A stretch of 42,464 nt of DNA from Streptomyces roseochromogenus subsp. oscitans DS 12.976 (GTDB taxonomy: Bacteria > Actinomycetota > Actinomycetes > Streptomycetales > Streptomycetaceae). A program made the translations under genes and the position numbers. Location: assembly GCF_000497445.1 (NCBI RefSeq), contig NZ_CM002285.1, positions 5,307,239 through 5,349,702 on the forward strand, in the 5' to 3' direction. Shown here piece after piece: positions 3,629-36,227 of the stretch; the first letter of the stretch is position 1, and the number at the start of each line of letters is the position of its first letter. The notes under the pieces are model-generated. The model made no database searches and was not told where the DNA came from. It saw only the letters and a list, made by a program, of their open reading frames with translations.

Positions 3629-3670
3629 CTGACAGTACGTCAGATTACAGCTAATCTGACGACCAGTCAG
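3629..3670. promoter_or_regulatory. Paired palindromic operators with overlapping divergent promoters
   Basis: Two 15-bp palindromes, CTGACAGTACGTCAG (3629-3643) and CTGACGACCAGTCAG (3656-3670), have centres 27 bp apart. Rightward, CTGACA (3629-3634), 17 bp and TAATCT (3652-3657) form a good sigma-70-type promoter for the acyl-CoA synthetase. Leftward, CTGACT (3670-3665), 17 bp and TAATCT (3647-3642) form the mirror-image promoter for the thiolase operon. Each -35 lies in one operator and each -10 touches the other, and the inner segment is a perfect 9-bp inverted repeat (3639-3660). A single repressor occupying both sites would silence both operons. The sequence facts are direct; the regulator type (TetR-like is likely for a 15-bp dyad at CoA-metabolism genes) is inference. 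Confidence 0.75.
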
Positions 3671-3711
3671 CTGTGAGTGTTCTCGCTGTTCGCTGTTTCG
3701 GGAGGTCTGCT

Positions 3712-5319
3712 GTGGGCGAGTGGAACACCGTCCCGGAGCTGGTGCGGTGGTCGGCCGAGCGGTACGCGGACACCGAGGCCGTGGTCGAGGGCCGTACGAG
3801 GATCACGTACGCCGAACTGGGTGCGCGGGTGGAACGAGCGGCGGCGGCCTGCCTGGCGAGCGGGGTGGAGGCGGGTGACCGGGTCGCGGTCTGGGCCCCC
3901 AACTCCCTCGACTGGATCGTGTCGGCTCTGGGTGCGGTGACGGCCGGCGCGGTCCTCGTCCCGCTCAACACCCGCTTCAAGGGGGCGGAGGCGGCGGACG
4001 TGCTGCGCCGTAGCGGAGCCCGGCTGCTCTTCGTCACCGGCACCTTCCTGGGCACGTCGTACGTGGCGAGCTTGCGCCGTGCGGCGGGGGAGGCGGAGTC
4101 AGGGTCCCCGGACGGCCGGGGCCCGCTGCCGGCGCTGCCGGACCTTGAGCAGGTGGTGGTCCTGTCGGAGGACGCGCCCCCGGACTTCCGTACCTGGAAG
4201 GACTTCCTGGCGGGAGGGGAGGGGGTAGCGGAGCTGGAAGTGCAGGACAGGGCCGATGAGTTGGAAGGCCGGTCGGTCTCGGACATCATCTACACGTCGG
4301 GTACGACGGGCCGCCCGAAGGGCGCGGTGATCACACACGAGCAGACGCTGCGGGCGTACGAGATCTGGGCAGAACTGGCAGGTCTGCGCACGACGGACCG
4401 CTACCTGATCATCAACCCCTTCTTCCACACCTTCGGCTACAAGGCAGGGGTGATCGCCTGTCTGATGCGCGGGGCGACGATGATCCCGCAGCCGGTGTTC
4501 AACGTGGACACGGCACTGGCGAACATCGCGGCGGAACGGGTGTCGGTCCTACCGGGCCCACCGACCCTCCACCAGTCCCTGCTCGACCATCCGTCCCGGG
4601 ATACGCATGACCTCTCGGCGCTGCGGCTGGTGGTGACGGGAGCGGCGGTGGTGCCGTTGCGGCTGGTGGAACGGCTGCGAGGCGAACTCGGCGTCGACAC
4701 CGTCCTGACGGCCTACGGCCTCTCGGAGGCGAGCGGCATCGTCACGATGTGCCGACGCGGCGACGACCCGACCGTGATCGCGTCGACGTCGGGCCGGCCG
4801 ATCCCCGGCACGGAGGTGCGCCTGACCGACGCGTCCGGCGCCCCGGTGCCCACCGGCACCCCGGGCGAGGTGCTGGTGCGCGGCTTCAACGTCATGCGGG
4901 GCTACTACGACGACGCAGCGGCCACGTCCGAGGTGCTCTCCCCGGACGGCTGGCTGAGCACGGGCGACGTGGGTGTCCTGGACGAGGCGGGCAATCTTCG
5001 GATAACGGACCGTATCAAGGACATGTTCATAGTCGGCGGCTTCAACGCGTATCCGGCGGAGATAGAGCAACTGCTCGGCGTACACCCGGATGTGGCCGAC
5101 GTGGCCGTGATCGGCGTACCGGACCCCCGCCTCGGCGAGGTCGCCAAGGCGTTCGTGGTGCGCGGGCCGGGCTCGACACTGACATCGGACGACCTGATCG
5201 CCTGGTCCCGCCGTGAGATGGCGAACTACAAGGTGCCGAGGTCGGTGGAGTTCGTGGGGGAACTGCCCCGGAATGCAAGCGGGAAGGTGGTGAAGGGGGT
5301 TTTGCGGGGGAGGGGGTGA
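3712..5319 (+). CDS. Acyl-CoA synthetase (FadD3-like, AMP-forming)
   Basis: A 535-aa ANL-superfamily ligase that activates a carboxylic acid to its CoA thioester through an acyl-adenylate. The phosphate-binding loop is at about residues 191-204 (DIIYTSGTTGRPKG). Further landmarks are an A5-like motif (TAYGLSEASG), the A8 hinge region (ITDRIKDMFIVGG) and the C-terminal catalytic lysine in NASGK (Lys525). The start is the GTG at 3712, preceded by GGGAGG at 3700-3705; the in-frame GTG at 3673 has no ribosome-binding site. It is transcribed divergently from the Ltp/DUF35/crotonase operon through a shared double operator, so it probably supplies the first CoA ester of that pathway. Similarity in style to FadD3 (steroid C/D-ring propionate ligase) suggests a bulky substrate, but that is not proven. 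Confidence 0.92.
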   Translation: MGEWNTVPELVRWSAERYADTEAVVEGRTRITYAELGARVERAAAACLASGVEAGDRVAVWAPNSLDWIVSALGAVTAGAVLVPLNTRFKGAEAADVLRRSGARLLFVTGTFLGTSYVASLRRAAGEAESGSPDGRGPLPALPDLEQVVVLSEDAPPDFRTWKDFLAGGEGVAELEVQDRADELEGRSVSDIIYTSGTTGRPKGAVITHEQTLRAYEIWAELAGLRTTDRYLIINPFFHTFGYKAGVIACLMRGATMIPQPVFNVDTALANIAAERVSVLPGPPTLHQSLLDHPSRDTHDLSALRLVVTGAAVVPLRLVERLRGELGVDTVLTAYGLSEASGIVTMCRRGDDPTVIASTSGRPIPGTEVRLTDASGAPVPTGTPGEVLVRGFNVMRGYYDDAAATSEVLSPDGWLSTGDVGVLDEAGNLRITDRIKDMFIVGGFNAYPAEIEQLLGVHPDVADVAVIGVPDPRLGEVAKAFVVRGPGSTLTSDDLIAWSRREMANYKVPRSVEFVGELPRNASGKVVKGVLRGRG

Positions 5320-5380
5320 GGCGTGGGGGATGGAGGGAGCCCGGACCCCTGCCCCCAGACTCGGCCCCCGGACACACGTC

Positions 5381-5415
5381 GGCCGCGACGGCTCCCCCTC
5401 GGTGCCGTCGCGGCC
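5381..5415. terminator. Bidirectional hairpin between the acyl-CoA synthetase and afsS
   Basis: A perfect 12-bp inverted repeat, GGCCGCGACGGC (5381-5392) and GCCGTCGCGGCC (5404-5415), with an 11-nt loop, lies between two convergent genes. It has no U tract, as is usual for Streptomyces terminators, and its symmetry would serve both transcripts. Confidence 0.75.
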
Positions 5416-5437
5416 GGTTCCCCCGTCGGTCTTCGGG

Positions 5438-5662
5438 TCAGGTGCGGTCGGACGTGATGTGGGTGTTGTCCGGGGTGACCGTGCCGTCGGCGGCCGCTGC
5501 CGGGGCGTCGGTGATGTGGGTGTTGAGCGGCGTGACGCCGGAGTCGGCCTTGGCGTCGGTGATGTGGGTGTTGAGCGGCGTGACCTCGGTGCCGGCCTCG
5601 GCGTCGGTGATGTGCGTGTTGTCCGGCTTGACGACCGGCTGGTCCTTGGTGATGTCGCTCAT
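5438..5662 (-). CDS. afsS: AfsS-like small repeat regulator (four NTHIT repeats)
   Basis: A 74-aa protein starting MSDITKDQPVVKPDNTHITD, with the pentapeptide Asn-Thr-His-Ile-Thr at residues 15-19, 31-35, 47-51 and 66-70; the first three copies are spaced by exactly 16 residues. There are no hydrophobic segments, no Cys and little predicted structure between repeats. The ATG at 5662 follows AAGGGGAG; an upstream in-frame ATG at 5707 lacks a good site. In S. coelicolor, AfsS is a small repeat-containing protein (often annotated sigma-like) encoded just downstream of afsR and transcriptionally activated by AfsR to switch on antibiotic production. The same position and strand here, and AfsR-type direct repeats upstream, support that identity. 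It was considered as a RiPP precursor, but no modifying enzyme is adjacent. Confidence 0.8.
   Translation of the reverse strand: MSDITKDQPVVKPDNTHITDAEAGTEVTPLNTHITDAKADSGVTPLNTHITDAPAAAADGTVTPDNTHITSDRT
5504..5584. repeat. 33-bp direct repeat inside afsS
   Basis: An identical 33-bp unit occurs at 5504-5536 and 5552-5584 (period 48 bp, i.e. 16 codons), encoding two of the NTHIT protein repeats. Identity at the DNA level, not only in the protein, suggests recent duplication or gene conversion and allows copy number to vary by recombination. Confidence 0.8.
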
Positions 5663-5839
5663 CAGGTGCTCCCCTTGGAGATTGCGTTGCAGCTGTGGTG
5701 GGCCCATCCGGACACTCCCCCGAGTGCGGGCCCGGATGGGCCACTTGAGCCGCCCACTCTAGATCGCGAGTGCTGCGGCCTCACCGGCTGGTCCGTCTGC
5801 CCCCCGACACGACGGCCCGGTATCCATGAGCGTGCCGCA

Positions 5840-5909
5840 GGGCGATAAACGATCGATGAACGGGTCGATGAACGGGACGACGGATGGGTCCATGAAGGTC
5901 TGTGAACGT
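5840..5909 (-). promoter_or_regulatory. Direct repeats upstream of afsS (AfsR/PhoP-type binding region)
   Basis: Two adjacent exact 12-bp repeats TCGATGAACGGG lie at 5853-5864 and 5865-5876. Read on the afsS strand they give GTTCATCGACCC-type units, flanked by the related GTTCACAG (near 5900-5909) and GTTTATCG (near 5843-5850), with roughly 11-12 bp periodicity. SARP regulators bind direct repeats with about one helical turn spacing, and PhoP of Streptomyces binds GTTCACC-like repeats; both are reported to compete at the afsS promoter in S. coelicolor. The repeats end about 180 bp before the afsS start codon. The exact -10 was not identified. Confidence 0.6.
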
Positions 5910-5925
5910 CGGGACGGCGGCCCGC

Positions 5926-9068: not shown

Positions 9069-9097
9069 CTGACGGACCGTCAGATCGGCGCTACCGT
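9069..9097 (+). promoter_or_regulatory. Palindromic operator overlapping the -35 of the amidohydrolase operon
   Basis: The palindrome CTGACGGACCGTCAG is at 9069-9083. Its left arm CTGACG (9069-9074), 17 bp and TACCGT (9092-9097) make a plausible promoter whose +1 falls at or next to the ATG at 9105, so the transcript may be leaderless. A bound repressor would cover the -35. Confidence 0.65.
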
Positions 9098-9104
9098 GAG
9101 GGCC

Positions 9105-10337
9105 ATGGAGACCACACAGTTCCCGCTGATCATCTCCGTCGACGACCACACCGTGGAGCCCGCCACCGTCTGGCGGGACCGGCTGCCGAGGAAGTACCTG
9201 GACGTCGGGCCCCGGATCGTGCGCGCCCCCGTCAAGGAGATGACCTTCCTGGGCGGGCGTTTCCGGCCCGTCATGGGCGAACCCGGCAGCACCGACGGCC
9301 CCGTCGGCGACTGGTGGGTCTACGGAGACCTCCGGCGCCCCCTCACCCGGCTCGACACCGCCGTCGGGTACGCCCGGGACGAGGTCAAGCTCGAGGTCAT
9401 CACGTACGAGCAGATGCGCCCCGGGTCGTACGACGTGTCCGCCCGGCTCGCCGACATGGACGTCAACCACGTCCAGTCCGCTGTCTGCTTCCCCACCTTC
9501 CCCCGGTTCTGCGGCCAGACCTTCGCCGAGGCCGCCGACAAGGAACTCGCTCTGCTGTGCGTGCGCGCCTACAACGACTGGATGGTGGAGGAGTGGTGCG
9601 GGCCCAAGGCGCGGGGCCGGCTGATACCGCTCCCGCTCATACCCCTGTGGGACGCCGAACTGGCCGCCGCGGAGGTACGGCGCAACGCCGCGCGGGGCGC
9701 GCGGGCCGTCGCCTTCTCCGAGATACCCCCGCACCTCGGCCTGCCGTCCGTCCACGGTGACGAGTGGGACCCGTTCCTCGCGGCCTGCGACGAGACCGGC
9801 ACGGTCGTCGCCATGCACATCGGCTCCAGCAGCAGAATGCCGTCCACCTCCGCCGATGCCCCGCCCGCCGTCGGCTCCACCATCACCTTCGCCAACTGCT
9901 GCTTCTCGATGGTCGACTGGCTGATGAGCGGCAAGTTCGAGCGTTTCCCGAACCTCAAGGTCATGTACGCGGAGGGCCAGATCGGCTGGATCCCGTACAT
10001 CCTGGAGCGCGCCGACGTCGTCTGGGAGGAGAACCGGGGCTGGGGCGGGGTCGCGGACAAGGTCACCCGGCCGCCGTCCGAGCTGTTCGCCGAGCACGTC
10101 TACGGCTGCTTCTTCGACGACGCCTTCGGCCTCAGGAGCCTCGACTCCATCGGTGTCGGCAACGTCCTGTACGAGACGGACTACCCGCACTCCGACTCCA
10201 CCTGGCCGAAGTCCCGTGAGGTCGGCGAGCGGCAGATGGGGCATCTGCCGGCGGACGTGGTCGAGCGGATCGTCCGCGGCAACGCCATCGAGCTGCTGGG
10301 GCTGACCAAGGACGGCCTGTGGAGGGGGGCGGAGTGA
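9105..10337 (+). CDS. Amidohydrolase family 2 (ACMSD-like) metal-dependent hydrolase/decarboxylase
   Basis: A 410-aa TIM-barrel amidohydrolase of the type frequent in actinobacterial lipid and aromatic catabolic clusters. The N-terminus (PLIISVDDHTVEP) carries the D-x-H variant of the usual metal-binding H-x-H. MHIGSSSRMPST and YETDYPHSDSTWP carry later conserved His and Asp positions, and the C-terminus has the family-typical VERIVRGNAIELLGL. The start is placed at ATG 9105, the likely transcription start; an in-frame GTG at 9096 is possible. It overlaps the downstream oxidoreductase by four bases (GTGA). Relatives hydrolyse C-N or C-C bonds or decarboxylate; the substrate cannot be read from sequence. 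It is the first gene of an operon under a palindromic operator. Confidence 0.85.
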   Translation: METTQFPLIISVDDHTVEPATVWRDRLPRKYLDVGPRIVRAPVKEMTFLGGRFRPVMGEPGSTDGPVGDWWVYGDLRRPLTRLDTAVGYARDEVKLEVITYEQMRPGSYDVSARLADMDVNHVQSAVCFPTFPRFCGQTFAEAADKELALLCVRAYNDWMVEEWCGPKARGRLIPLPLIPLWDAELAAAEVRRNAARGARAVAFSEIPPHLGLPSVHGDEWDPFLAACDETGTVVAMHIGSSSRMPSTSADAPPAVGSTITFANCCFSMVDWLMSGKFERFPNLKVMYAEGQIGWIPYILERADVVWEENRGWGGVADKVTRPPSELFAEHVYGCFFDDAFGLRSLDSIGVGNVLYETDYPHSDSTWPKSREVGERQMGHLPADVVERIVRGNAIELLGLTKDGLWRGAE

Positions 10338-11257
10338 GCCTCGCGTACGGCATCCAGCTGCCCGTCCAGGCGCAGAGTGCCCTGTTCGCGGAAGGCTGGG
10401 AGGCGGGCGCCGGGCCGGCGGACCTGGTGGCGCTCGCGCGGGCCGTGGACGGCGCCGGGTTCGACTACCTCGCCGCATGCGACCACGTGGCGATCCCGCG
10501 GCGGCTCGCGCCGGCGATGAGCACGGTCTGGTACGACCCGGTCGCCACCCTCGCCCACCTCGCCGCCGTCACCGAGCGCGTCCGCCTGCTCAGCCATGTG
10601 GCCGTCGTGGGGCTGCGGCATCCGCTGCTCACCGCCAAGCAGTACGCCACCGTCGACCACCTCTCCGGCGGCCGGCTGATCCTCGGGGTCGGGGCCGGGC
10701 ACGTACGGGAGGAGTTCGAGGTGCTCGGGGCCGACTTCGAGCGGCGGGGAGCGGTGCTGGACGAGACGATCGACGCGCTCCGGGCCGCCCTCGGATCCGA
10801 GGAGTTCCCCGAACACCGCGGCAAGTTCTACGACTTCGGCGGGCTGGGCCAGCGGCCGCGGCCCGCGCAGCCGGAGGTCCCGCTGTGGGTCGGCGGCTCC
10901 TCGCCCGCCGCCGTACGCCGGGCCGCGCTGAAGGGCGACGGCTGGCTGCCCCAGGGGGATCCGCGGGAGCGGCTGCCCGCACAGATCGCCCGGCTGCGGC
11001 GGCTGCGGGAAGAGGCCGGCGCCGAGGGGCCGTTCACGGTCGGCGCGATCGCCGAGCCGCTGTACGTCGGACGGGCCGGCTGGGAGGTCGGGCGGCGGAC
11101 CCTCACCGGGGCACCGGAGGAGATCGCCGAGTCGCTGCGGGCCTACCGGGCGATGGGCGTGGACCAGATCCAGGTGCGGTTCCGCAGCCGGAGCCGGGCC
11201 GAACTCATCGAGCAGATCGGACTGTTCGGGGCTCAGGTCGCACCCCGGCTGGACTGA
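10334..11257 (+). CDS. Luciferase-like (LLM) F420/flavin-dependent oxidoreductase
   Basis: A 307-aa protein of the bacterial luciferase-like fold. Landmarks are GFDYLAACDHVAIPRR, the strand TERVRLLSHVAVVGLRHPLL, the family signature VDHLSGGRLILGVGAGH (about residues 105-122) and PEVPLWVGGSSPAAVRRA. This pattern is common in F420-dependent oxidoreductases, but FMN-dependent members share it. The start is GTG 10334, preceded by GGAGGGG at 10321-10327 and overlapping the amidohydrolase stop. It is the second gene of the amidohydrolase-LLM-SDR operon, where it probably oxidises or reduces a pathway intermediate. The presence of fbiC about 10 kb away makes F420 use plausible. Confidence 0.87.
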   Translation: MSLAYGIQLPVQAQSALFAEGWEAGAGPADLVALARAVDGAGFDYLAACDHVAIPRRLAPAMSTVWYDPVATLAHLAAVTERVRLLSHVAVVGLRHPLLTAKQYATVDHLSGGRLILGVGAGHVREEFEVLGADFERRGAVLDETIDALRAALGSEEFPEHRGKFYDFGGLGQRPRPAQPEVPLWVGGSSPAAVRRAALKGDGWLPQGDPRERLPAQIARLRRLREEAGAEGPFTVGAIAEPLYVGRAGWEVGRRTLTGAPEEIAESLRAYRAMGVDQIQVRFRSRSRAELIEQIGLFGAQVAPRLD

Positions 11258-11272: not shown

Positions 11273-12043
11273 ATGGGCAAGCTGGAAGGGCGGGTCGTCA
11301 TCATCACCGGGGCGGCCCGCGGGCAGGGCGAGCAGGAGGCACGGCTCTTCCGGGCGGAGGGCGCCCGGGTGATCGTCGCCGATGTGCTGGACGACCAGGG
11401 GGAGACCCTGGCCAAGGAGATAGGCGCGCTGTACGTCCATCTCGACGTCGGCACCGAGGACGGCTGGCGGGAGGCGGTGGCGGCCGCCAAGGCGGCGTAC
11501 GGGCATCTCGACGGGCTCGTCAACAACGCGGGGATCCTGCGCTTCAACGCCCTCGTGGACACGCCGCTCGACGAGTTCATGCAGGTCGTGCAGGTCAACC
11601 AGGTCGGCTGCTTCCTGGGCATGAAGACGGTGGCGCCGGAGCTGGCCGACGGGGGCACGATCGTGAACACCGCCTCCTACACGGCGATGACCGGCATGGC
11701 GGCGGTGGGCACGTACGCCGCGACCAAGCACGCCGTGCTGGGGCTGACCCGGGTGGCCGCGCTGGAGCTGGCGGGCCGTGGCATCCGGGTCAACGCGATC
11801 TGTCCGGGCGCCATCGACACCGCGATGTCCAACCCGGCGCGCCTCGACCCGGACGCCGACCCGGAGGAGATGAGCCGGGCCCTGGAGGAGCTGTACCGGG
11901 GGCTCGTACCGCTCGGGCGGGTGGGGCAGCCGGAGGAGGTGGCGCGCCTCGCCCTCTTCCTCACCTCGCAGGACTCGTCGTACATCACCGGGCAGCCGTT
12001 CGTGATCGACGGCGGGTGGCTGGCGGGGGTCAGCATAATCTGA
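11273..12043 (+). CDS. Short-chain dehydrogenase (hydroxysteroid dehydrogenase-like)
   Basis: A 256-aa classical SDR: cofactor loop TGAARGQG near residues 12-19, an acidic residue after the second strand (VIVADVLD), indicating NAD rather than NADP, LVNNAG, the catalytic Ser in NTASYTA, Tyr-x3-Lys in TYAATK and the C-terminal VIDGGW. The style resembles Streptomyces 3-alpha/20-beta-hydroxysteroid dehydrogenase, but substrate cannot be assigned. The ATG follows GAGGAGG and lies 15 bp after the LLM stop, so it is in the same operon. Its TGA stop lies within the first operator of the next operon (12040-12054). Confidence 0.92.
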   Translation: MGKLEGRVVIITGAARGQGEQEARLFRAEGARVIVADVLDDQGETLAKEIGALYVHLDVGTEDGWREAVAAAKAAYGHLDGLVNNAGILRFNALVDTPLDEFMQVVQVNQVGCFLGMKTVAPELADGGTIVNTASYTAMTGMAAVGTYAATKHAVLGLTRVAALELAGRGIRVNAICPGAIDTAMSNPARLDPDADPEEMSRALEELYRGLVPLGRVGQPEEVARLALFLTSQDSSYITGQPFVIDGGWLAGVSII

Positions 12044-12081
12044 CAGGCCGTCAGCTATTGACGAATCTGACGCTACGTCAG
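12040..12081 (+). promoter_or_regulatory. Second paired operator (27-bp spacing) before the LLM-aminoacylase operon
   Basis: CTGACAGGCCGTCAG (12040-12054) and CTGACGCTACGTCAG (12067-12081) have centres 27 bp apart, identical to the pair at 3629-3670. The right site supplies CTGACG as a -35 that is 17 bp from TAGCAC (12090-12095), a plausible promoter for the gene at 12145. The left site overlaps the stop codon of the preceding SDR. Confidence 0.72.
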
Positions 12082-12144: not shown

Positions 12145-13263
12145 TTGGAATTCGGGCTCTTTGTACAGGGATACGTGGGCAAGCGCGCCGAGACCGACCC
12201 GCTCGCCGAGCACAAGGCGCTGATGGAGGAGACCGAGTACGTCATCCAGGCGGACAAGTCCGGCTTCAAGTACGCGTGGGCCTCCGAGCACCACTTCCTG
12301 GAGGAGTACTCGCACCTGTCGGCCAACGATGTGTTTCTGGGGTATCTGGCGCACGCGACCGAGCGCATCCACCTGGGCTCCGGGATCTTCAACCCGCTCG
12401 CCCAGGTCAACCACCCCGTGAAGGTCGCCGAGAAGGTCGCCATGCTGGACCACCTCAGCGAGGGCCGCTTCGAGTTCGGCAGCGGGCGGGGCGCCGGGTC
12501 GCACGAGATCCTCGGGTTCATACCGGGTGTGACCGATATGAACTACACCAAGGAGATCTGGGAGGAGACCATCGCCGAGTTCCCGAAGATGTGGCTCCAG
12601 GACGAGTACGCGGGCTTCCAGGGCAAGCACTGGCAGCTGCCGCCGCGCAAGGTCCTGCCGAAGCCGTACGGGAAGTCGCATCCGGCGATGTGGTACGCGG
12701 CCGGGTCGCCCCCGTCGTACGCCATGGCCGCGAAGAAGGGGCTCGGCGTGCTCGGCTTCAGCATCCAGAAGGTCTCCGACATGGAGTGGGTGCTGGAGCA
12801 GTACAAGACGGCGGTCGTGAACGCGGAGCCCGTCGGGGATTTCGTGAACGACAACGTGATGGTGACGACCACGGCGATCTGTGCGCCCACCCATGCCGAG
12901 GCGATCGACACCGCCGTGCACGGGGGGCTGCACTATCTGCCCTCGCTGGTGTTCCGGTACCACGACACGTTTCCCCGGCCGGAGGGCTTCCCGGTGTGGC
13001 CGGAGACCCTGCCCGAGTACACGCCGGAGTTCGTGGAGCTGCTCATCGAGGAGGAGCTGCTGATCTGCGGGGATCCGGACGAGGTGCTGCGGCAGTGCAA
13101 GCGGTGGGAGCAGGCCGGGGCGGATCAGCTGAGCTTCGGGTTGCCGGTGGGGGTGCCGAAGGCGGAGACATTGCGGACGATTCAGCTCATCGGGGAGCAC
13201 GTCATTCCGAAGATCGATACGGATCCCGTTCACCGGACGTCCCGGTTCCGTCAGGCTGTCTGA
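12145..13263 (+). CDS. Luciferase-like (LLM) flavin-dependent monooxygenase/oxidoreductase
   Basis: A 372-aa protein with the luciferase alpha-like layout. FGLFVQGYVGKRAE is followed by AWASEHHFLEEYSHLSANDV (the E-H-H region near the flavin site), TERIHLGSGIFNPL and AMLDHLSEGRFEFGSGRGAG. It starts with TTG at 12145, the only start near GGGAGGG (12129-12135). The longer E-H-H-type N-terminus is closer to FMN-dependent monooxygenases than the other two LLM proteins of this window, so oxygen insertion is possible. It heads an operon with an aminoacylase-like hydrolase, an aldehyde dehydrogenase and an alpha/beta hydrolase, downstream of a double operator. Confidence 0.85.
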   Translation: MEFGLFVQGYVGKRAETDPLAEHKALMEETEYVIQADKSGFKYAWASEHHFLEEYSHLSANDVFLGYLAHATERIHLGSGIFNPLAQVNHPVKVAEKVAMLDHLSEGRFEFGSGRGAGSHEILGFIPGVTDMNYTKEIWEETIAEFPKMWLQDEYAGFQGKHWQLPPRKVLPKPYGKSHPAMWYAAGSPPSYAMAAKKGLGVLGFSIQKVSDMEWVLEQYKTAVVNAEPVGDFVNDNVMVTTTAICAPTHAEAIDTAVHGGLHYLPSLVFRYHDTFPRPEGFPVWPETLPEYTPEFVELLIEEELLICGDPDEVLRQCKRWEQAGADQLSFGLPVGVPKAETLRTIQLIGEHVIPKIDTDPVHRTSRFRQAV

Positions 13264-13276: not shown

Positions 13277-15007
13277 ATGTTGGATCACCTCATCAAGGGC
13301 GTCACCGTCGTTGACGGGACCGGGGCGCCCGCCTACATCGCCGATGTCGGTATACGCAACGGGCGGATTGCCGTCATCGGCACCGTCACCGAAGACGCCC
13401 ATACGACCGAGGACGCCGCCGGCCTCGTCCTCGCCCCCGGCTTCGTCGACCCCCACACCCACTACGACGCCCAGCTCTTCTGGGATCCGTATGCCACGCC
13501 CTCCCTCAATCACGGGGTGACGACGGTCGCCGGCGGGAACTGTGGGTTCACGCTCGCGCCTCTCAATCCCGCCCGCCCCGACGACGCCGACTACACCCGG
13601 CGGATGATGTCCAAGGTGGAGGGGATGTCCCTGGTGGCGCTGGAGGAGGGGGCGCCCTGGAGCTGGAACTCCTTCGGGGATTATCTGGACGCCCTTGACG
13701 GGCGCATCGCCGTCAACGCGGGCTTCATGGTGGGCCACTGTGCGCTGCGCCGGTATGTGATGGGGCCCGACGCCATCGGCGGGCAGCCCAGTGCGGAGCA
13801 ACTGACCGAGATCGTAAGGCTGTTGCACGAGGCGATGGATGCCGGGGCGTGGGGGCTGTCCACCACGCAGTCCCGTACGCACTCCGACGGGGACGGGCAG
13901 CCGGTCGCCTCCCGGCACGCGCTCCCCGCCGAACTGCTCGCCCTGTCCAGGGCGGTCGGGGAGCACGAGGGGACACAGATCGAGGCGATCGTCTCCGGGT
14001 GTCTGGACCAGTTCGGCGACGACGAGATCGATCTGCTGGTGGAGATGAGCGCGGTGGCCGGACGGCCGCTGAACTGGAACGTGCTCACCGTCGACGCGGC
14101 CGTTCCGGAGCGGGTGCCCCGGCAGCTGAGCGCGAGCGAGCGCGCCCGCAAGGCCGGCGGGCGGATCGTGGCGCTCACCATGCCGATCCTCACCCCGATG
14201 AACATGTCCCTGGGGACCTTCTGCGCCCTCAACCTCATTCCGGGCTGGGGGCCGATCCTCGGGCTGCCCGTGCCGGAGCGGATCGCCAGGCTCCGGGACC
14301 CGGCCGTCCGGGCGGAGATGCTGAGGCGGGCCCAGTCGAAGGAGGCCGGCGTCTTCCGGCGGCTCGCGAACTTCGGGCGGTATGTCATCGGGGACACCTA
14401 CAGCGAGGCCAACCGGGGCCTGACCGGCCGGGTGGTGCGGGACATCGCCGAGGAGCGGGGGCTTGACCCCTTCGCCTGCCTGGTGGAGATCTGCGCGGCC
14501 GACGAGCTGCGTACGGTGCTGTGGCCGATGCCGAGCGACAACGACCCGGCGTCCTGGGCGCTGCGCGCCGAGACCTGGCAGCACGAGGACGTGCTGCTGG
14601 GCGGGTCCGACGCCGGGGCGCATCTGGACCGGATGTGCGGGGCGCCGTACACGACACGGTTCCTCGGTGACTGTCTGCGCGGCCGGAAGCTGCTCGGTCT
14701 GGAGCGGGCGGTGAAGATGCTGACCGACGATCCGGCCCAGCTCTTCGGGCTGCGGGAGCGCGGGCAGGTGCGGGAGGGGTGGCATGCGGACCTCGTCCTG
14801 TTCGACCCGGAGCGGATCGACGCCGGGCAGGCCCGGCTGGTGCACGACCTGCCGGGTGACAGTCCGCGCCTGGACTCCGAGGCGATCGGGGTGCGCGCGG
14901 TGTGGGTCAACGGGGTCGAGGCGATCCGGGACGACGTGGTGACCGGGGCCGTACCGGGCAAGGTGCTGCGCTCGGGGGCCGACACCCGCACGGTGAGCAC
15001 GCGGTGA
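13277..15007 (+). CDS. N-acyl-D-amino-acid deacylase family amidohydrolase
   Basis: A 576-aa amidohydrolase-3 family protein. The metal-binding H-x-H is in GFVDPHTHYDAQ (His60, His62). NHGVTTVAGGNCGFTLAP, GWGLSTTQSRTHSDG-like and GGSDAGAHLDRMCGAPY segments are typical of D-aminoacylases and their relatives, and the C-terminus REGWHADLVLFDP closes the small beta domain. Characterised members remove acyl groups from N-acyl-D-amino acids, but many catabolic homologues have unknown amide substrates. The ATG follows AGGAGG 13 bp after the LLM stop, and the end overlaps the aldehyde dehydrogenase start (GTGA). Together these indicate amide or ester hydrolysis followed by aldehyde oxidation. Confidence 0.88.
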   Translation: MLDHLIKGVTVVDGTGAPAYIADVGIRNGRIAVIGTVTEDAHTTEDAAGLVLAPGFVDPHTHYDAQLFWDPYATPSLNHGVTTVAGGNCGFTLAPLNPARPDDADYTRRMMSKVEGMSLVALEEGAPWSWNSFGDYLDALDGRIAVNAGFMVGHCALRRYVMGPDAIGGQPSAEQLTEIVRLLHEAMDAGAWGLSTTQSRTHSDGDGQPVASRHALPAELLALSRAVGEHEGTQIEAIVSGCLDQFGDDEIDLLVEMSAVAGRPLNWNVLTVDAAVPERVPRQLSASERARKAGGRIVALTMPILTPMNMSLGTFCALNLIPGWGPILGLPVPERIARLRDPAVRAEMLRRAQSKEAGVFRRLANFGRYVIGDTYSEANRGLTGRVVRDIAEERGLDPFACLVEICAADELRTVLWPMPSDNDPASWALRAETWQHEDVLLGGSDAGAHLDRMCGAPYTTRFLGDCLRGRKLLGLERAVKMLTDDPAQLFGLRERGQVREGWHADLVLFDPERIDAGQARLVHDLPGDSPRLDSEAIGVRAVWVNGVEAIRDDVVTGAVPGKVLRSGADTRTVSTR

Positions 15008-16455
15008 GCGAGGGGCAGCGGCTGTTCGTCGGCGGCGCGTGGGTGGAACCGGACGGCGGGCACTACCCGGTGACCGACCCGGCCACCGAGGAGACCGTGG
15101 GCTGGGCGCCGGAGGCGTCGCCGGCGCAGGTGCGGGCGGCCTGCGCGGCGGCCCGGGAGGCGTTCACGGCGTGGTCGCGGACCCGGCCCCAGGAGCGGGC
15201 GGCGGTGCTGGGCCGGGCGGCGGAGATCATCCGGGCGCGGATGGAGCCGTACGCCGAGCTGGCCCGCGCGGAGACCGGCGCGACCACCGGGACCGCCCGC
15301 GCGATGCAGGTCGGAGTGGCCGCCGCCCGGTTCCGCCGGTACGCGAGCGTGGAGCCCGCCGAGTGGGCCGTCGCCCCGCAGATCAACGAGGCCGGGCCGA
15401 TGGGCAAGGCCGGGGTGATGGGCGCCTTGGCGATACGGCAGCCCGTCGGCGTCGTCACCTGCGTCACCTCCTACAACAACCCCTGGGCCAACCCGGCCGG
15501 CAAGGTCGCCCCGGCGCTGGCCATGGGCAACACGGTGGTCGTGAAGCCGGCCCCGCAGGACCCCCTCTGCGTCTACCGGATGGCGGAGGCGCTGGAGGCG
15601 GCCGGCGCGCCGCCGGGCGTGGTGAACGTCGTCTCCGGGCGGGATGTGGCCGTGGGCGAGGCGGCGGTGGCGTCCGACGACGTCGACATGGTCAGCTTCA
15701 CCGGCTCCACGGCCGTCGGCCGGCGGATCGCCGAGGTGTGCGGGCGGGACATGAAACGCCAGCTGATGGAGCTGGGCGGCAAAGGCGCGGCGCTCGTCTT
15801 CGACGACGCCGACCTCGCCTCGGCCGTCGCCGGCATCGGCACCACCTTCTCCTTCTACAGCGGGCAGATCTGCACCGCACCGACGCGGGTGCTGGCCCAG
15901 CGGGGCGTGTACGACCGTCTGGTCGGGCAACTTGCCGTATATGCGGATCGGTTGAAGGTCGGGGACCCACGGGAGCCGGACACCGTCGTCGGCCCGCTGA
16001 TCTCGGCGGAGCACCGGGCGCGGGTCGAGTCGTACGTGGAACTGGGCCGCAAAGAGGGAGCGTCGGTGGTCGCGGGCGGCGAACGCCCCCCGATGGAGAC
16101 GGGTTTCTACGCATCGCCCACCCTGCTGGCCGACTGCACCAACGACATGCGGGTGGCCCGGGAGGAGATCTTCGGGCCGGTGGTCGTGGTGGTTCCCTTC
16201 GACGGCGAGGAGGAGGCCGTGGCCCTCGCGAACGACTCCGACTACGGCCTCATCGACTACGTGTGGTCCGGCGACGTGGCCAGAGCCTTCCGGGTGGCCC
16301 GGCGGCTGCGGGCCGGTGGGGTCGGCATCAACACGGTGGGCCGGAACATGGAAGCGCCGTTCGGGGGATTCAAGAAGAGCGGTGTGGGCCGTGACGTGGG
16401 CTCCTATGCCCTGCACGCCTACAGCGAGGTGCAGGCCGTCGTGTGGCCGGGCTGA
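15004..16455 (+). CDS. NAD(P)-dependent aldehyde dehydrogenase
   Basis: A 483-aa aldehyde dehydrogenase. The general base Glu256 is in LMELGGKGA, the nucleophile Cys290 in YSGQICTAPTR, the cofactor loop in VSFTGSTAVGRR, and the C-terminal GGFKKSGVGRD motif is intact. It oxidises an aldehyde to the acid; with nearby acyl-CoA ligases the acid could then be activated to a CoA ester. The start is GTG 15004, which overlaps the deacylase stop; the open frame extends upstream only as a shadow of that gene. It is the third gene of the operon starting at 12145, and all key residues are present. Confidence 0.95.
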   Translation: MSEGQRLFVGGAWVEPDGGHYPVTDPATEETVGWAPEASPAQVRAACAAAREAFTAWSRTRPQERAAVLGRAAEIIRARMEPYAELARAETGATTGTARAMQVGVAAARFRRYASVEPAEWAVAPQINEAGPMGKAGVMGALAIRQPVGVVTCVTSYNNPWANPAGKVAPALAMGNTVVVKPAPQDPLCVYRMAEALEAAGAPPGVVNVVSGRDVAVGEAAVASDDVDMVSFTGSTAVGRRIAEVCGRDMKRQLMELGGKGAALVFDDADLASAVAGIGTTFSFYSGQICTAPTRVLAQRGVYDRLVGQLAVYADRLKVGDPREPDTVVGPLISAEHRARVESYVELGRKEGASVVAGGERPPMETGFYASPTLLADCTNDMRVAREEIFGPVVVVVPFDGEEEAVALANDSDYGLIDYVWSGDVARAFRVARRLRAGGVGINTVGRNMEAPFGGFKKSGVGRDVGSYALHAYSEVQAVVWPG

Positions 16456-16475
16456 GTTCTGGCACCGTGGGCTCC

Positions 16476-17252
16476 ATGGAGCAGACGGTGAAGGTCGAGG
16501 GCGGCGAGGTCTGGGCGGACGACTCGGGAGGTGAGGGGCTCCCCCTGGTGCTGCTGCACCCGGGGATCGCGGACTCGCGGGTGTGGGAGCCGGTGCTGCC
16601 CGGGCTGACCACGCGGTACCGGGTGATCCGGTACGACGCCCGGGGCTTCGGCAAGTCGCCGGCGCCGACAGGGCCGTACACGCAGACCGGGGACCTGCGG
16701 CGGGTCCTGGACCACTTCGGGCTGGACCGCGCGGTCCTGGTCGGCAGCAGCATGGGCGGCAAGTCCGTGATCGACTTCGCGCTGAGTGACCCGGAACGGG
16801 TGGCCGCCCTGGGGCTGCTGGTGCCGGGCGTCACCGGTTACCCGAAGCTGGAGTCCCCGGACCTGAGCGCGGAGATCGCCCGGTTGGCACAGGCGGGAGA
16901 CATGGACGGCCTGCTCGCCCTGTCCCTGCGCACCTTCGCGGCGGCGGGCAGCGCGCCGGACGCCCGGGCCGCCGAACTGGTCCGGGACTCGTTCCGGGGC
17001 TGGTTCTCCACCTATGGCCACGAGCAGGCGGAGCAACCAGCCTTCGATCGGCTGTCCGAACTTCGCATGCCCTGCGTGCTGTTGCTGGGCGAGCAGGACA
17101 CACCCCGGCTGGTCGCCTGCAACGAGGCGATGGCCGCCCGCATCCCCGGCTGCCGGCTCGTCCGCGTCCCGGAGAGCGACCACCTACCCACGCTGCGGGC
17201 TCCGGGGACGGTGGTGCGCGTGATCAACGGCCTGTTCGAGCGGGTCGGGTGA
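16476..17252 (+). CDS. Alpha/beta hydrolase
   Basis: A 258-aa alpha/beta-hydrolase-fold protein: HPGIADSRVWEP oxyanion region, IRYDARGFGKS, nucleophile elbow G-S-S-M-G with Ser92, catalytic acid probably in LLGEQDTPRL, and the His in PESDHLPTLRAPG. Acts on an ester, C-C bond or lactone; the substrate is unknown. The start is uncertain: ATG 16476 gives a normal-length protein, while the in-frame GTG at 16443 would overlap the aldehyde dehydrogenase; neither has a strong ribosome-binding site. It is the last gene of the operon and its stop is four bases from the stop of the convergent Ddn-like gene. Confidence 0.87.
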   Translation: MEQTVKVEGGEVWADDSGGEGLPLVLLHPGIADSRVWEPVLPGLTTRYRVIRYDARGFGKSPAPTGPYTQTGDLRRVLDHFGLDRAVLVGSSMGGKSVIDFALSDPERVAALGLLVPGVTGYPKLESPDLSAEIARLAQAGDMDGLLALSLRTFAAAGSAPDARAAELVRDSFRGWFSTYGHEQAEQPAFDRLSELRMPCVLLLGEQDTPRLVACNEAMAARIPGCRLVRVPESDHLPTLRAPGTVVRVINGLFERVG

Positions 17253-31889: not shown

Positions 31890-31915
31890 GGCGTCAGGTC
31901 AAGGACCGTCGGTCG

Positions 31916-32026: not shown

Positions 32027-32116
32027 GACTACTCCTCCCATGCGGGTTTCCGACCACTCCCCCTGAGCGCGGGCCCGGGCTCGTCGGGAGCCGGGGCCAG
32101 GAAGCGGCCGCAGCAC

Positions 32117-32147
32117 ATAGCTAGCTGCAGAGCGTGAGGCGAAGGCA
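32117..32147 (-). promoter_or_regulatory. Weak candidate promoter of the lasso operon
   Basis: On the minus strand TTGCCT (32147-32142) is followed after 19 bp by TAGCTA (32122-32117), about 90 bp before the precursor ATG. The hexamers are reasonable but the spacing is long, so this is only a candidate. Confidence 0.3.
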
Positions 32148-32280
32148 AGAGCCTCGGTGAAGGTCGGATAATAGGCACAATCCGTACGCCTCGGGTTGTG
32201 CGCCCCGCTCGTTCTGGCTGTCGTCAGCGCGGCGTTGGCATGCGGCCTCGGTATGCGCATCCTCAAATAAACGTTTTGAG

Positions 32281-32314
32281 ATGCCGTCCGGCAGTTGTTG
32301 ACGGCATCTGCCGG
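32281..32314. promoter_or_regulatory. Two overlapping, mutually exclusive inverted repeats
   Basis: ATGCCGTC (32281-32288) pairs with GACGGCAT (32300-32307), and CCGGCAG (32288-32294) pairs with CTGCCGG (32308-32314). The two stems interleave, so only one can form at a time. They lie between the divergent lasso operon and ARH-like gene and could be an operator pair or an RNA switch; no function is established. Confidence 0.45.
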
Positions 32315-32548
32315 AGGCACCTGACGGCAGTCGCGGACAGGCGCCGCCGGGCGCACTCCAGGCCGGGGCTCACCTCTTGGCGGCCGGGACGAGGCCCGGG
32401 GCGAACTGGTAGGAGATCGACTCCAGCAGCGGCTTGCGGGTCGCCGGGAATGACCGGCAACGGGTGATTTGGCCCCGTGAACGCGCCGTTCGCTGTCGAT
32501 TACAGTGCTGGATGTCGTACGGACGGACGGTGCCGTGAGGAGGTCTGC

Positions 32549-33664
32549 GTGGGTGCGACATCCGGCGCCGTCTGGGGCCGTGCCGAACAACAGGACTTCC
32601 GCAGCAGGGTGCGCGGCACCCTGCTCGGGGCCGCCGTGGGCGATGCGCTCGGCGGGCCCGCCGACCCGCTCTCCCTGGAGGAGATCCGGGCGACGTACGG
32701 CCCCGAGGGGCTGCTCGACCTGGCCTTCGGGCACGGCCGGCGCGGCACGGTCACCCACCACACCCAGCTCACCCTCTTCACGCTGGACGGGCTGATACGC
32801 GCCCAGGTGCGCCGCGACACCGGCGCCTGGCATCCGCCGACCGATCTGCACCGGGCGTACCGGCGCTGGGCGGCCACCCAGCGGGACTGGGGGCCCGACG
32901 AGCGCCGCAAGGACGACGGCTGGCTCGCCCGCGAAGAGTGGCTCTACGCCCGCCGCGAGCCGACCCGGGCCCTGCTCGTCGGCTTCGGAGACGACACGCT
33001 CGGCACCCTGGAGTCACCGAAGAACCCCGGCGAGCTGGGCCCGGAGGCCGTGGCCCGCTCCGCGCCGTTCGGGCTGCTGGTCGGCTGGGAGCCGCAGCTC
33101 GTCGCACAGCTGGCGGTGGAGTGTGCGACGCAGAGCCATGGGCACCCGATCGCCTACCTCTCGGCGGGCGCGTACGCCGTGATCGTGCACGCGCTGGCCC
33201 GGGGCGAGAGCCTGGACGGCGCCGTGCAGCGGGCCCTCGCCCTGCTCGCCGCCCGCCCCGGCCACCAGCCCGTCTCGGACGCCCTGCAGCATGCCCTCGG
33301 CGCGGTGCGGCAGGGAATACCCAGCCCGACCCGGGTGGAGGAGCTGGCCGGGGACGGTACGGCGGACGGGTTGCTGGCGGCGTCCGTGTACTGCGCGCTG
33401 GTGGGGGAGGACGTACGGCACGGGCTGTGCCTGGCGGTGAACCAGGGCGGGCCGTCGGCGGCGGCGGGCGCGTTGACAGGCGGGCTGCTCGGCGCGCTCC
33501 ACGGCGAGACGGCCCTCCCGCCAGGGTGGCTGACAGAGCTGGAGGGCCGGGCGACGATGCTGGAACTCGCGGATGATTTCGCCATGGAGATGACTCAGGG
33601 TCCCGCGTTGCACGGTCCTGCGGGGTCCGCACCGGGCTGGCTGGCGCGGTACCCGCGGGCCTGA
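32549..33664 (+). CDS. ADP-ribosylglycohydrolase-fold protein with degenerate metal site
   Basis: A 371-aa all-helical DraG/ARH-family protein: RGTLLGAAVGDALGGPADPL at the N-terminus, TLFTLDGLIRAQ, and GALTGGLLGALHGETALPP near the C-terminus. The family binds two Mg ions through an N-terminal [ST]-D-D-T and a C-terminal G-D-x-D-[ST]-x-[GA] motif. Here the first is T-H-H-T (His70, His71) and the second is GGPSAAAGA (residues ~300-308), so the acidic ligands are gone from both. The protein may bind ADP-ribose or a protein partner without hydrolysis. The start is GTG 32549, preceded by GAGGAGG. It is divergent from the lasso operon, from which it is probably independent. Confidence 0.85.
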   Translation: MGATSGAVWGRAEQQDFRSRVRGTLLGAAVGDALGGPADPLSLEEIRATYGPEGLLDLAFGHGRRGTVTHHTQLTLFTLDGLIRAQVRRDTGAWHPPTDLHRAYRRWAATQRDWGPDERRKDDGWLAREEWLYARREPTRALLVGFGDDTLGTLESPKNPGELGPEAVARSAPFGLLVGWEPQLVAQLAVECATQSHGHPIAYLSAGAYAVIVHALARGESLDGAVQRALALLAARPGHQPVSDALQHALGAVRQGIPSPTRVEELAGDGTADGLLAASVYCALVGEDVRHGLCLAVNQGGPSAAAGALTGGLLGALHGETALPPGWLTELEGRATMLELADDFAMEMTQGPALHGPAGSAPGWLARYPRA

Positions 33665-33713
33665 GGGAGCGAACGGCCACGACGGACCCGCAGCCGGCAA
33701 CGGATCCGCACCC

Positions 33714-35279
33714 CTACGGCGCTCCCACCACGTCCCCCGCCGGGACCGCCACCCCATCCCCGTCCGTATTGACCTTCTCGATGATCGCCAGCCTCTCCGG
33801 CGTATCCTCCGGCTTCACATAGCCGATGACGATGTACAGGGCCAGGGACACCGCCAGCGGCACCGAGACCTGGTACTGCAGGGCCACTCCGCCGGAGACG
33901 TTCCAGCTGACGGGGTAGTTCACCAGCCAGAACGCCAGCAACCCCGCCGCCCAGCTGGTCAGCGCCGCCGTGGGACCGGAGCGGCGGAACGGCCGGAGCA
34001 GACCCAGCATCATCGGGATCGCGATCGGACCCATCAGACCGGCCACCCACTTGATGACGACGGTGATGATGTCCTTGAACGTGGGCGAGTTGACCTGGGT
34101 GGCGACAGCCATCGACAGGCCCAGGAAGAGGACCGTCGTCACGCGCGCCGCGATCAGACCCGAGCGCGCACTCCAGGCCCGCGCGCGAGCGGACAGCACC
34201 GGCGCCACGTCCCGCGTGAACACCGCCGAGATCGCGTTCGCGTCGGAGGAGCACATGGCCATCGTGTGGGAGAAGAAGCCGACGATCACCAGGCCCAACA
34301 GCCCGTGCGGCAGCAGCTGTTCGGTCATCAGGCCGTAGGAGTCGGAGCCGTCCGGCTTCTGCGCGTGGACCAGGAGCGGGGACATCCACATCGGGAAGAA
34401 CAACACCACCGGCCAGACCAGCCACAGGATCGCTGACAGCCGGGCGGAGCGCTCGGCCTCGTGCGCGCTGCCCGTCGCCATGTACCGCTGCGCCTGGTTG
34501 AGCATGCCGCCGTTGTATTCGAAGAGCTTGATGAACAGAAACGCGAAGAGGAAGACAGTGCCGTAAGGGCCCACCAGCGGTTTGCCGTGGCCGTGCAGGG
34601 CCGGCTGGCTCCAGGCGTCGAAGAAGCCGATGTGCTTGTCGTTCAGTTTCAGTACGACTGCGACGAACATCGAGACACCGGCGAGCAACTGGATGACGAA
34701 CTGGCCGAGTTCGGTCAGCGCGTCCGCCCACAGGCCGCCGATCGTGCAGTACACGGCGGTGATCGCGCCGGTGATGAGGATGCCCTGGTTCAACGACACA
34801 CCCGTGAACACCGACAACAGGGTGGCGATGGCGGCCCACTTGGCGCCCACGTCCACGATCTTCAGCAGCATGCCGGACCAGGCGAGTGCCTGCTGGGTGG
34901 ACAGGTTGTAACGGTTCTTCAGGTACTCCAGCGGGGAGGCCACATGGAGTCGGGAACGGAGTCGGTTGATCCGGGGCGCGAACAGCCTCGACCCGATGGC
35001 GATGCCGAGCGCGATGGGAAAGGACCAGGTCACAAATGAAGTAACGCCATACGTATAGGCGATGCCCGCGTACCCCGTGAACATCACCGCGCTGTAGCCC
35101 GACATGTGGTGCGAGATGCCGGACAGCCACCAGGGCATCTTGCCGCCGGCCGTGAAGAAGTCGGAGACGTTGTCCACGCGTTTGTGCGACCAGACGCCGA
35201 TCGCCACCATCACACCGAAGTAGCCGATGAGTACGGCCCAGTCGAGACTGTTCATGTGCTCGATCGTGGGTGCGGTCAC
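33714..35279 (-). CDS. Sodium:solute symporter (SSS family)
   Basis: A 521-aa membrane protein with about 13 transmembrane helices and the SSS hallmarks: LIGYFGVMVAIGVWSHKR, DFFTAGGKMPWWLSGISHHM in the first helices, GGLWADALTELGQFVIQLL in the middle, and the FFSHTMAMCSSDANAISAVF region near the sodium site. It would import a small organic solute (sugar, carboxylate or similar) with Na+. The GTG at 35279 and the ATG at 35255 are both possible starts; the hydrophobic part begins after the ATG. An inverted repeat lies just upstream (35310-35333). No partner sensor or catabolic gene is adjacent, so the solute is unknown. Confidence 0.9.
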   Translation of the reverse strand: MTAPTIEHMNSLDWAVLIGYFGVMVAIGVWSHKRVDNVSDFFTAGGKMPWWLSGISHHMSGYSAVMFTGYAGIAYTYGVTSFVTWSFPIALGIAIGSRLFAPRINRLRSRLHVASPLEYLKNRYNLSTQQALAWSGMLLKIVDVGAKWAAIATLLSVFTGVSLNQGILITGAITAVYCTIGGLWADALTELGQFVIQLLAGVSMFVAVVLKLNDKHIGFFDAWSQPALHGHGKPLVGPYGTVFLFAFLFIKLFEYNGGMLNQAQRYMATGSAHEAERSARLSAILWLVWPVVLFFPMWMSPLLVHAQKPDGSDSYGLMTEQLLPHGLLGLVIVGFFSHTMAMCSSDANAISAVFTRDVAPVLSARARAWSARSGLIAARVTTVLFLGLSMAVATQVNSPTFKDIITVVIKWVAGLMGPIAIPMMLGLLRPFRRSGPTAALTSWAAGLLAFWLVNYPVSWNVSGGVALQYQVSVPLAVSLALYIVIGYVKPEDTPERLAIIEKVNTDGDGVAVPAGDVVGAP

Positions 35280-35309
35280 GTGAACGCGACAAGCGAGGGT
35301 AGGGTCAAG

Positions 35310-35333
35310 TCAAAGCAAAGATGTTCGCTTTGA
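35310..35333. promoter_or_regulatory. Inverted repeat upstream of the symporter gene
   Basis: TCAAAGC (35310-35316) and GCTTTGA (35327-35333) flank a 10-bp spacer in an A/T-rich island, 31 bp before the GTG start of the symporter. It looks like an operator for a dimeric regulator. CTGAACG-type direct repeats lie just beyond it (about 35353-35368). Confidence 0.5.
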
Positions 35334-35392
35334 TGATTTATGTTCACGCACCTGAACGCAGCTGAACGTATGGACGGCGGCGCGGGGCGGGG

Positions 35393-36181
35393 TCACCGCA
35401 TCAGTTCCCCCGCGTTGACCAGCAGCGACTGCCCCGTGATGGCCCGCGCCCGATCCGAGGACAGGAACACCACCGCGTCCGCCACGTCCCCGTCCGTCGC
35501 CAGCTCCGGCAGCGCCATCCGCTCCGTCAGCCGCCCCAGCACCTCCGCCTCCGGCACCCCTTCCGTCTGTGCGGTGAACTGCACGTACGCCTGCACCGGC
35601 GGCCCCCACATCCAGCCCGGCAGCACGGTGTTGACCCGGATCCGGTGTGGCCCGAGTTCCCGGGCCAGCGAGTACATCGCGCTGGTCAGCGCCCCCTTCG
35701 ACGCGGCGTACGCGGCCTGCTTCACCTGTGAGGGTGCCGCGACGGCCGACTGTGTCCCGATGAAGACCACGCAGCCGCCCCCGCCCGCCTTCAGTGACGG
35801 CAGGCACGCCCGGGTCATCCGCAGGGTGCCCAGCAGGTTCACGTCGATGACCGACTGCCAGGTCGCGAAGTCCGCGTCCTGAAGCCCGCCGAAGTGGGAG
35901 TCCCAGGCCGCGACATGGACCACCGCGTCGATGCCGCCGAACCGCTCCCGCGCCAGCTCCGCCAGCGCCGCGCACTGCCCCTCGTCGGTGATGTCCGTCG
36001 CCCGGTACGCCGTACACGTGCCGTCCGGGTCGATCTCGGCCGCGCTCTTGGCGAGGTTCGCCTCGGTGCGTGCCCCGAGCACCGCGTTCCCGCCGTCCCG
36101 TACGACGGCCGCGGCGACCTGATGGCCGAGCCCGGCCCCGACTCCCGAGACGACCACGGTCTTGCCGGTGAGCAGTGGCAT
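35393..36181 (-). CDS. Short-chain dehydrogenase/reductase
   Basis: A 262-aa SDR: TVVVSGVGAGLGHQVAAAVV at the N-terminus with the G-x3-G-x-G loop, Arg after the second strand (VLGARTEAN) suggesting NADP(H), VHVAAWDS where most family members have N-N-A-G, the Ser in FIGTQSAVAAPS, and Y-A-A-S-K as catalytic Tyr/Lys. The substitution of NNAG by VAA is seen in some catabolic SDRs. The ATG at 36181 follows GGGAGGGG. It is divergent from the gene at 36274, with one CTGAC-N5-GTCAG operator between them, which ties it to the catabolic regulon of the left half of the window. Confidence 0.9.
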   Translation of the reverse strand: MPLLTGKTVVVSGVGAGLGHQVAAAVVRDGGNAVLGARTEANLAKSAAEIDPDGTCTAYRATDITDEGQCAALAELARERFGGIDAVVHVAAWDSHFGGLQDADFATWQSVIDVNLLGTLRMTRACLPSLKAGGGGCVVFIGTQSAVAAPSQVKQAAYAASKGALTSAMYSLARELGPHRIRVNTVLPGWMWGPPVQAYVQFTAQTEGVPEAEVLGRLTERMALPELATDGDVADAVVFLSSDRARAITGQSLLVNAGELMR

Positions 36182-36210
36182 GAGGACCCCTCCCGGACCC
36201 TGGCGCTTTA

Positions 36211-36227
36211 TCTGACGGAGCGTCAGA
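36211..36227. promoter_or_regulatory. Palindromic operator between divergent SDR and two-domain protein genes
   Basis: TCTGACGGAGCGTCAGA (core CTGACGGAGCGTCAG, 36212-36226) is the sixth copy of the palindrome. On the SDR strand TTCCGT, 17 bp and TACTCT (ending at 36225) form a possible promoter, which would place the operator over and just downstream of its -10. Confidence 0.68.

Follow-up and report, generated by a model that had tools for sequence, protein, structure and literature searches.

A conserved CTGAC-N5-GTCAG palindrome as the predicted operator of a TetR-type regulator of a catabolic regulon in Streptomyces

We analysed a stretch of 42,464 nt from Streptomyces roseochromogenus subsp. 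oscitans DS 12.976 (hereafter the window; contig NZ_CM002285.1, or C1, positions 5,307,239-5,349,702), in which the palindrome CTGAC-N5-GTCAG recurs at the promoters of catabolic genes. Our analysis indicates that the palindrome, approximately AAT-CTGACR-NNN-YGTCAG-ATT, is very probably the operator of a TetR-type regulator encoded at C1:5303314-5303949, which would control this catabolic regulon. A sequence-only reading of the window had proposed a catabolic regulon under a TetR-type regulator; the proposal is supported, with corrections to the place of the regulator, the size of the regulon and the number of background copies. In particular, the regulon is larger than first noted and comprises 80 kb plus distal loci. 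These results assign a sharp candidate operator and a candidate regulator to a large group of uncharacterised catabolic genes that is widely conserved in Streptomyces, and offer a direct handle on a pathway that resembles the mycobacterial steroid side-chain pathway. Neither the motif nor the regulon turned up in the literature, of which open-licence papers were covered, so that an earlier description may exist.

The window contains six exact matches to CTGAC-N5-GTCAG and none besides, at the coordinates given in the sequence-only reading, where dinucleotide shuffles predict 0.02 and none of 100 shuffles reached six. Because matches with two mismatches number 21 against 28.8 expected, only the exact palindrome is enriched inside the window, and the two-mismatch palindromes were rejected as enriched sites. 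The extended form CTGAC[AG]NNN[CA]GTCAG, proposed at the same time, fits all six sites. Genes in the window were called with our own codon-usage script; five sites are intergenic by these calls, and the site at 12040 overlaps the end of a gene that stops at 12043. Four of the predicted operators form two tandem pairs, each spaced 27 bp from start to start. One pair (3629..3643 and 3656..3670; 28.5 and 25.5 bits in the position weight matrix described below) lies between a thiolase/DUF35/enoyl-CoA hydratase operon on the minus strand and a FadD3-family ligase gene on the plus strand. The other (12040..12054 and 12067..12081; 29.3 and 29.1 bits) begins over the stop codon of a short-chain dehydrogenase/reductase (SDR) gene, upstream of the second operon for luciferase-like monooxygenases (LLM). 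The site at 9069..9083 (27.5 bits) is upstream of an amidohydrolase-LLM-SDR operon, 36 bp from the amidohydrolase start, and the site at 36212..36226 (31.4 bits) separates an SDR/sodium:solute symporter (SSF) operon on the minus strand from an uncharacterised 283-aa gene on the plus strand. Site 9069 is also near a divergent AfsR/SARP-type regulator gene (BTAD, NB-ARC, TPR), 222 bp upstream of its start as called, and the earlier claim that no copy stands at afsR-like genes has to be qualified accordingly.

Across the 9.78-Mb genome, the perfect palindrome occurs 50 times, compared with 4 occurrences of a reversed control pattern. This control flatters the motif: genomes of the class that have no match to the TetR carry a median of 1.21 copies per Mb, a rate at which some 12 of the 50 copies would be background. 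Around the window, the 80 kb of C1:5263441-5343464 hold 11 perfect copies against 0.41 expected (binomial p 3e-13). A weight matrix was built from these 11 cluster sites, which therefore score high by construction, and was scanned across 112 kb around the window. It returned 14 matches of at least 20 bits (the 11 perfect copies and three with one mismatch), none within a called gene and one overlapping a stop codon; below these comes a site at the TetR start (16.7 bits), beneath which the scan gave only two matches above 9 bits, at 9.1 and 9.4. Together, the 14 sites define 10 promoter regions, eight of them divergent. Four regions carry tandem pairs (spacing 27, 27, 27 and 24 bp), each site stands 6-135 bp away from the nearest start, and beyond a few AT-rich positions the flanks are not shared. 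The genome-wide check by which the sequence-only reading could have been refuted spoke for it, the high-scoring copies gathering at catabolic promoters of the acyl-CoA and LLM type and being kept between species.

Gene families were assigned with Pfam and NCBIfam for part of the genes in the 112 kb. The cluster targets and the genes downstream of them encode acyl-CoA ligases (one of the FadD3 family), an ADP-forming-type ligase, several acyl-CoA dehydrogenases and enoyl-CoA hydratases, a thiolase-fold lipid-transfer protein with its ChsH2-type partner, a second thiolase-like protein, a flavin reductase, LLM oxidoreductases, an F420H2-dependent quinone-reductase-like protein, SDRs, amidohydrolases, a cyclase, a DoxX protein, an aldehyde dehydrogenase and an SSF transporter. 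Judged by family, these genes would suit a pathway that imports a polycyclic or branched isoprenoid or steroid-like acid and degrades it by acyl-CoA-type reactions.

Scoring 150 of 327 first-look candidates gave 124 TetR_N matches in the genome. None lies in the window, in agreement with the sequence-only reading, which had placed the regulator elsewhere; the single match in the cluster, at C1:5303776, belongs to a minus-strand gene 3.3 kb to the left of the window (211 codons as first called). Its product carries TetR_N (PF00440, 27.1 bits, cut-off 24) and TetR_C_38 (PF19352, 246 bits, cut-off 23.9). The earlier reading had suggested looking for a TetR gene with the same site at its own promoter, and such a site is present: CTGAC-NNCAT-GACAG, with one mismatch, stands 6 bp from the called start and recurs at the TetR start in every one of 80 close loci (the top 80 among 567 relatives, 91-97% identical and all Streptomyces by title). 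An in-frame ATG lies 12 nt upstream of the first-called start in all 80, and the TetR start codon lies within its own operator in all of them (C1:5303935-5303975; L046-L125). A start codon inside the operator suggests that the TetR transcript may be leaderless or nearly so. The 1.358 Mb of sequence from these loci contains 180 perfect palindromes and no reversed control, and among the 56 Streptomyces loci long enough to show it, 52 have a 27-bp tandem pair 5.0-8.1 kb from the TetR gene. At several distant loci, the site apparently falls within the first codons after the likely start, and the operator would then be partly coding. Plasmid homologues of the TetR number 38 records, all below 60% identity.

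Comparison with a second Streptomyces (G018), by reciprocal best hits within stretches around sites, showed a site at the orthologous gene for each of the 10 cluster promoter regions. Each of the 15 cluster sites, including that of the TetR gene, has a counterpart in the same order, with a changed spacer in 10 cases and the same spacer in five. Both sites of the 3629 pair have such counterparts, as does 9069; 36212 is kept with an identical spacer, and the promoter orthologous to the 12040 pair has two sites, 60 bp apart there. Among distal sites of at least 18 bits, three of 20 are kept in G018, namely those at two LLM genes and at a divergent EchA19-like/acyl-CoA-synthetase pair. At E <= 1e-100, 45 of the 61 genomes of the genus have this distal EchA19-like gene; of these, 20 species chosen down the ranking were compared over about 500 bp upstream of the gene, and all 20 carry a perfect site there, the spacers varying.

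The motif and the TetR gene are also statistically tied beyond the genus. We surveyed motif density in 197 genomes of the class, 47 of which (the window's own included) have a TetR match at E <= 1e-10, and counted a homologue as strong at 120 bits or more. The median density was 4.29 per Mb in 16 genomes of the genus and 5.0 in 19 other genomes with a strong homologue, compared with 1.74 in 12 genomes with a weak homologue and 1.21 in 150 without one. Since family f13 (G012, G035, G053, G069 and G085), in which the palindrome occurs 232-473 times per genome, inflates the strong-homologue median, its five genomes were left out of a second test; the median was then 2.72 (n=14) versus 1.21 (n=150), with p 1.9e-6, a value that overstates independence because the genomes are related. 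Moreover, in a set of 21 distant TetR loci, a predicted site of at least 14.5 bits lies within 400 bp upstream of 17 of the 19 TetR homologues with at least 39% identity (families f12, f13, f14 and f18), compared with 51 of 1380 background windows (3.7%); the threshold and the 400-bp limit were chosen once the hits were known.

The two halves of the window, which the sequence-only reading had joined through the motif, are also connected by gene order elsewhere. The LLM gene at 10319 and the gene at 36274 are 25 kb apart in the window. Four f18 loci (L145, L147, L150 and L151) have relatives of both as divergent neighbours with one site between them (59-60% identity to the LLM protein and 55-75% to the other, by one-way best hits); the shared site departs from the palindrome by one mismatch at three of these loci and by two at the other. 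This arrangement therefore provides independent support that the halves belong together. That they serve one pathway, and that the regulator is a repressor, are points of the earlier reading that we likewise infer.

We propose that a TetR dimer would bind each palindrome, two dimers occupying the tandem pairs, and that bound TetR would overlap the core promoters. TetR would thereby repress about 10 promoter regions of the 80-kb cluster together with distal ones, and would repress its own gene via the weaker operator around its start codon. Release of TetR from the DNA may then be brought about by a metabolite of the pathway, perhaps a CoA thioester. Computation shows the motif, where it stands at promoters, how it is conserved and how it is tied statistically to this TetR; binding by TetR, cooperativity at the tandem pairs, the substrate, the ligand and the sign of regulation are all put forward here by inference.

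Several observations weigh against this reading. The motif and the TetR gene could share a neighbourhood without the regulator binding the motif, the operator being a computational prediction, and the evidence on the substrate class is family resemblance. The 80 close loci are of common ancestry, none of them has a perfect copy at the TetR start, and the tandem pair is missing in 4 of the 56 Streptomyces loci. In G018, five of the 15 spacers are unchanged, two tandem pairs are spaced otherwise (88 and 60 bp), and 17 of the 20 distal sites of at least 18 bits have no counterpart within the stretches around sites to which the search was confined. In the window's own genome, 16 of 39 distal palindromes lie within called genes. 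The distant loci of f12, f13, f14 and f18 are related, so that their nominal p of 7e-23 overstates the case; four of the 17 distant sites are 244-376 bp upstream, and no site was found at two of the 19 homologues (L156 and L159) or at the weaker homologues L163 and L164.

An alternative is that the sites are operators of another protein, such as the neighbouring Lrp/AsnC-type or BTAD/NB-ARC/TPR regulator or an unlinked one, with the TetR gene a mere target or neighbour. An AsnC-type gene does adjoin the TetR gene, and the AfsR/SARP-type gene adjoins site 9069. The recognition-helix stretch, which we place from general knowledge of TetR proteins, speaks in the same direction: loci with a site have TS(P/A/S)ATFYQYF, and nearly the same stretch (TSAATFYQYF and TSTATFYQYF) occurs in the two of 19 homologues without a site, L159 (no site) being identical in this stretch to L151 (site), both TSAATFYQYF. 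Helix identity was consequently dropped as proof of common binding. Set against this alternative, the AsnC-type gene was not called beside TetR in three of five loci (L122, L101 and L066; a small sample) while the sites stay, and motif density tracks the TetR homologue over the 197 genomes. We therefore consider another binding protein unlikely, and more so the reading of the palindromes as RNA hairpins (terminators) or a dispersed repeat, which we regard as very improbable. What lends hairpins some credit is family f13: in stretches of one of its genomes, G012 (L126-L144), 22 of 49 sites lie within called genes and 17 of 26 classified intergenic sites lie between convergent genes, often touching both stop codons; one further site, at an edge, was left unclassified. 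In G012, the f13 genome covered here, the palindrome looks like a shared bidirectional terminator or another convergent-gene element unrelated to TetR, and the f13 copy numbers were rejected as a giant regulon on these counts. In the window's genome, four of the 39 distal sites are convergent, whereas 8 of the 10 site-bearing cluster regions are divergent, with sites close to starts and flanks that are not common.

The operator could also belong to Sco4385, a published Streptomyces coelicolor TetR next to a 4-coumarate-CoA ligase (4CL) gene, which is likewise a TetR beside AMP-ligase and enoyl-CoA hydratase genes (PMC12093943). Its authors derived a 23-bp consensus whose matches in the native genome all carried two mismatches and lay within coding regions, and they doubted that it is the genuine site. 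In our strain, the ligase-hydratase-TetR trio occurs in the published order about 71 kb away, at C1:5229618-5232563 (TetR of 199 aa, C1:5231964), no perfect motif copy is listed at that trio, and the 4CL order is not found at the cluster TetR. Sco4385 was rejected as the regulator by this gene context, and there is next to no chance that the operator is its own.

The regulon resembles that of KstR in mycobacteria and rhodococci in its predicted TetR-type control of acyl-CoA ligases, dehydrogenases, hydratases and Ltp/ChsH2-type proteins. It also shares an LLM gene of the F420_Rv3520c family (score 436, cut-off 335), and genes for a PRK07799-type hydratase (422, cut-off 316) and a PRK07798-type acyl-CoA synthetase (688, cut-off 543) that are divergent with one site between them. 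Mycobacterial echA19 and fadD19 are arranged divergently in the same way. Scores for HsaB (197.3 of 230) and EchA19 (375.6 of 400) fall below cut-off. Unlike in the KstR regulon, no family specific to steroid-ring degradation reaches cut-off among the regulon genes scanned, and no KstR-named entry is present among 24 PDB sequences matching at E <= 0.01 (several generically named), the best being EthR (6e-7). The KstR operator differs from CTGAC-N5-GTCAG. We tentatively raise the possibility, to which we give less than even weight, that an F420-linked catabolic regulon for isoprenoid- or steroid-like compounds has long been under the TetR_C_38 regulator as its master regulator in actinobacteria, has been kept in Streptomyces and several other families, and is governed there as KstR governs its regulon in mycobacteria, by a different TetR and operator. 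If so, most Streptomyces would carry an undescribed steroid- or terpenoid-type pathway.

Likewise, the FadD3-family ligase, acyl-CoA dehydrogenases, SDR and hydratase recall the KstR2 regulon (HIP, the last two steroid rings), but a better KstR2-type candidate exists in the same genome at C1:226000-266000 (L204 and L205). This KstR2/HIP-type region encodes a FadD3-family ligase, a CoA-transferase pair, a PRK07801 thiolase and a PRK07831 SDR, along with a FabK-like protein below cut-off, acyl-CoA dehydrogenase relatives and a TetR. The motif was rejected as the operator of the region, which has no strong site: a 16.4-bit imperfect match stands before the left-edge gene and a 13.6-bit perfect one inside a gene. 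Because of this separate HIP-type locus, the strain may well degrade steroids, but steroids need not be what the widely kept cluster acts on. Metabolism of the HIP acid by Streptomyces rubescens is the subject, by its title, of a paper cited in PMC5380842.

The window genes beside the sites are as follows. To the left of the 3629 pair, on the minus strand, are genes for a thiolase-fold 'lipid-transfer protein' (2460..3614; NF005892, 580.5 bits, cut-off 469; Pfam Thiolase_C_1), which we read as Ltp2-like, a ChsH2-type OB-fold/zinc-ribbon protein (DUF35; 2047..2457; PF01796 and PF12172) and a protein of the enoyl-CoA hydratase/isomerase family (1274..2050; PF00378), for which there was no NCBIfam match at 1e-60. 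To the right, on the plus strand, is the gene for the FadD3-family acyl-CoA ligase (3712..5319; NF005801, 790 bits, cut-off 657). The AfsR/SARP-type gene (5926-8847, minus strand) has its upstream region in common with operator 9069 and could be a regulon member; in G018, too, a site stands 190 bp upstream of the orthologous gene. The plus-strand operon that follows encodes an Amidohydro_2 family protein (9105..10337; assigned by Pfam, with no NCBIfam family), an LLM-class F420-dependent oxidoreductase (10319..11257; TIGR03619, 242 bits, cut-off 166.9) and an SDR-family oxidoreductase (11273..12043) that just missed the nearest NCBIfam family (212.6 of 215). Beyond the 12040 pair, also on the plus strand, are genes for an LLM oxidoreductase (12175..13263) that stays below cut-off for all 25 NCBIfam families listed, an Amidohydro_3 family protein (13277..15007), an aldehyde dehydrogenase (15004..16455) and an alpha/beta hydrolase (16467..17252). 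At the site at 36212, the minus strand encodes an SDR (35393..36181; NF005909, 339.5 bits, cut-off 258) and the SSF symporter (33714..35279; PF00474), a candidate substrate importer, and the plus strand encodes the 283-aa protein (36274..37125), with no Pfam or NCBIfam family at E <= 0.001.

Further distal copies deserve mention. The palindromes of L022 and L027, reverse complements next to masked DNA, have matrix scores of 6.5 and 8.3 bits and were not counted as regulon members. A 29.3-bit site at C1:8691596 (L040:2997) precedes a gene of the nitronate-monooxygenase family and, after it, an acyl-CoA ligase gene; not seen among the G018 stretches, this locus is possibly a strain-specific regulon member. 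Finally, a 25.8-bit site at C1:3547694 (L020:2995) stands directly before a glyoxalase-family gene, which is followed by another TetR gene (TetR_C_23), and it may represent a link between two regulators.

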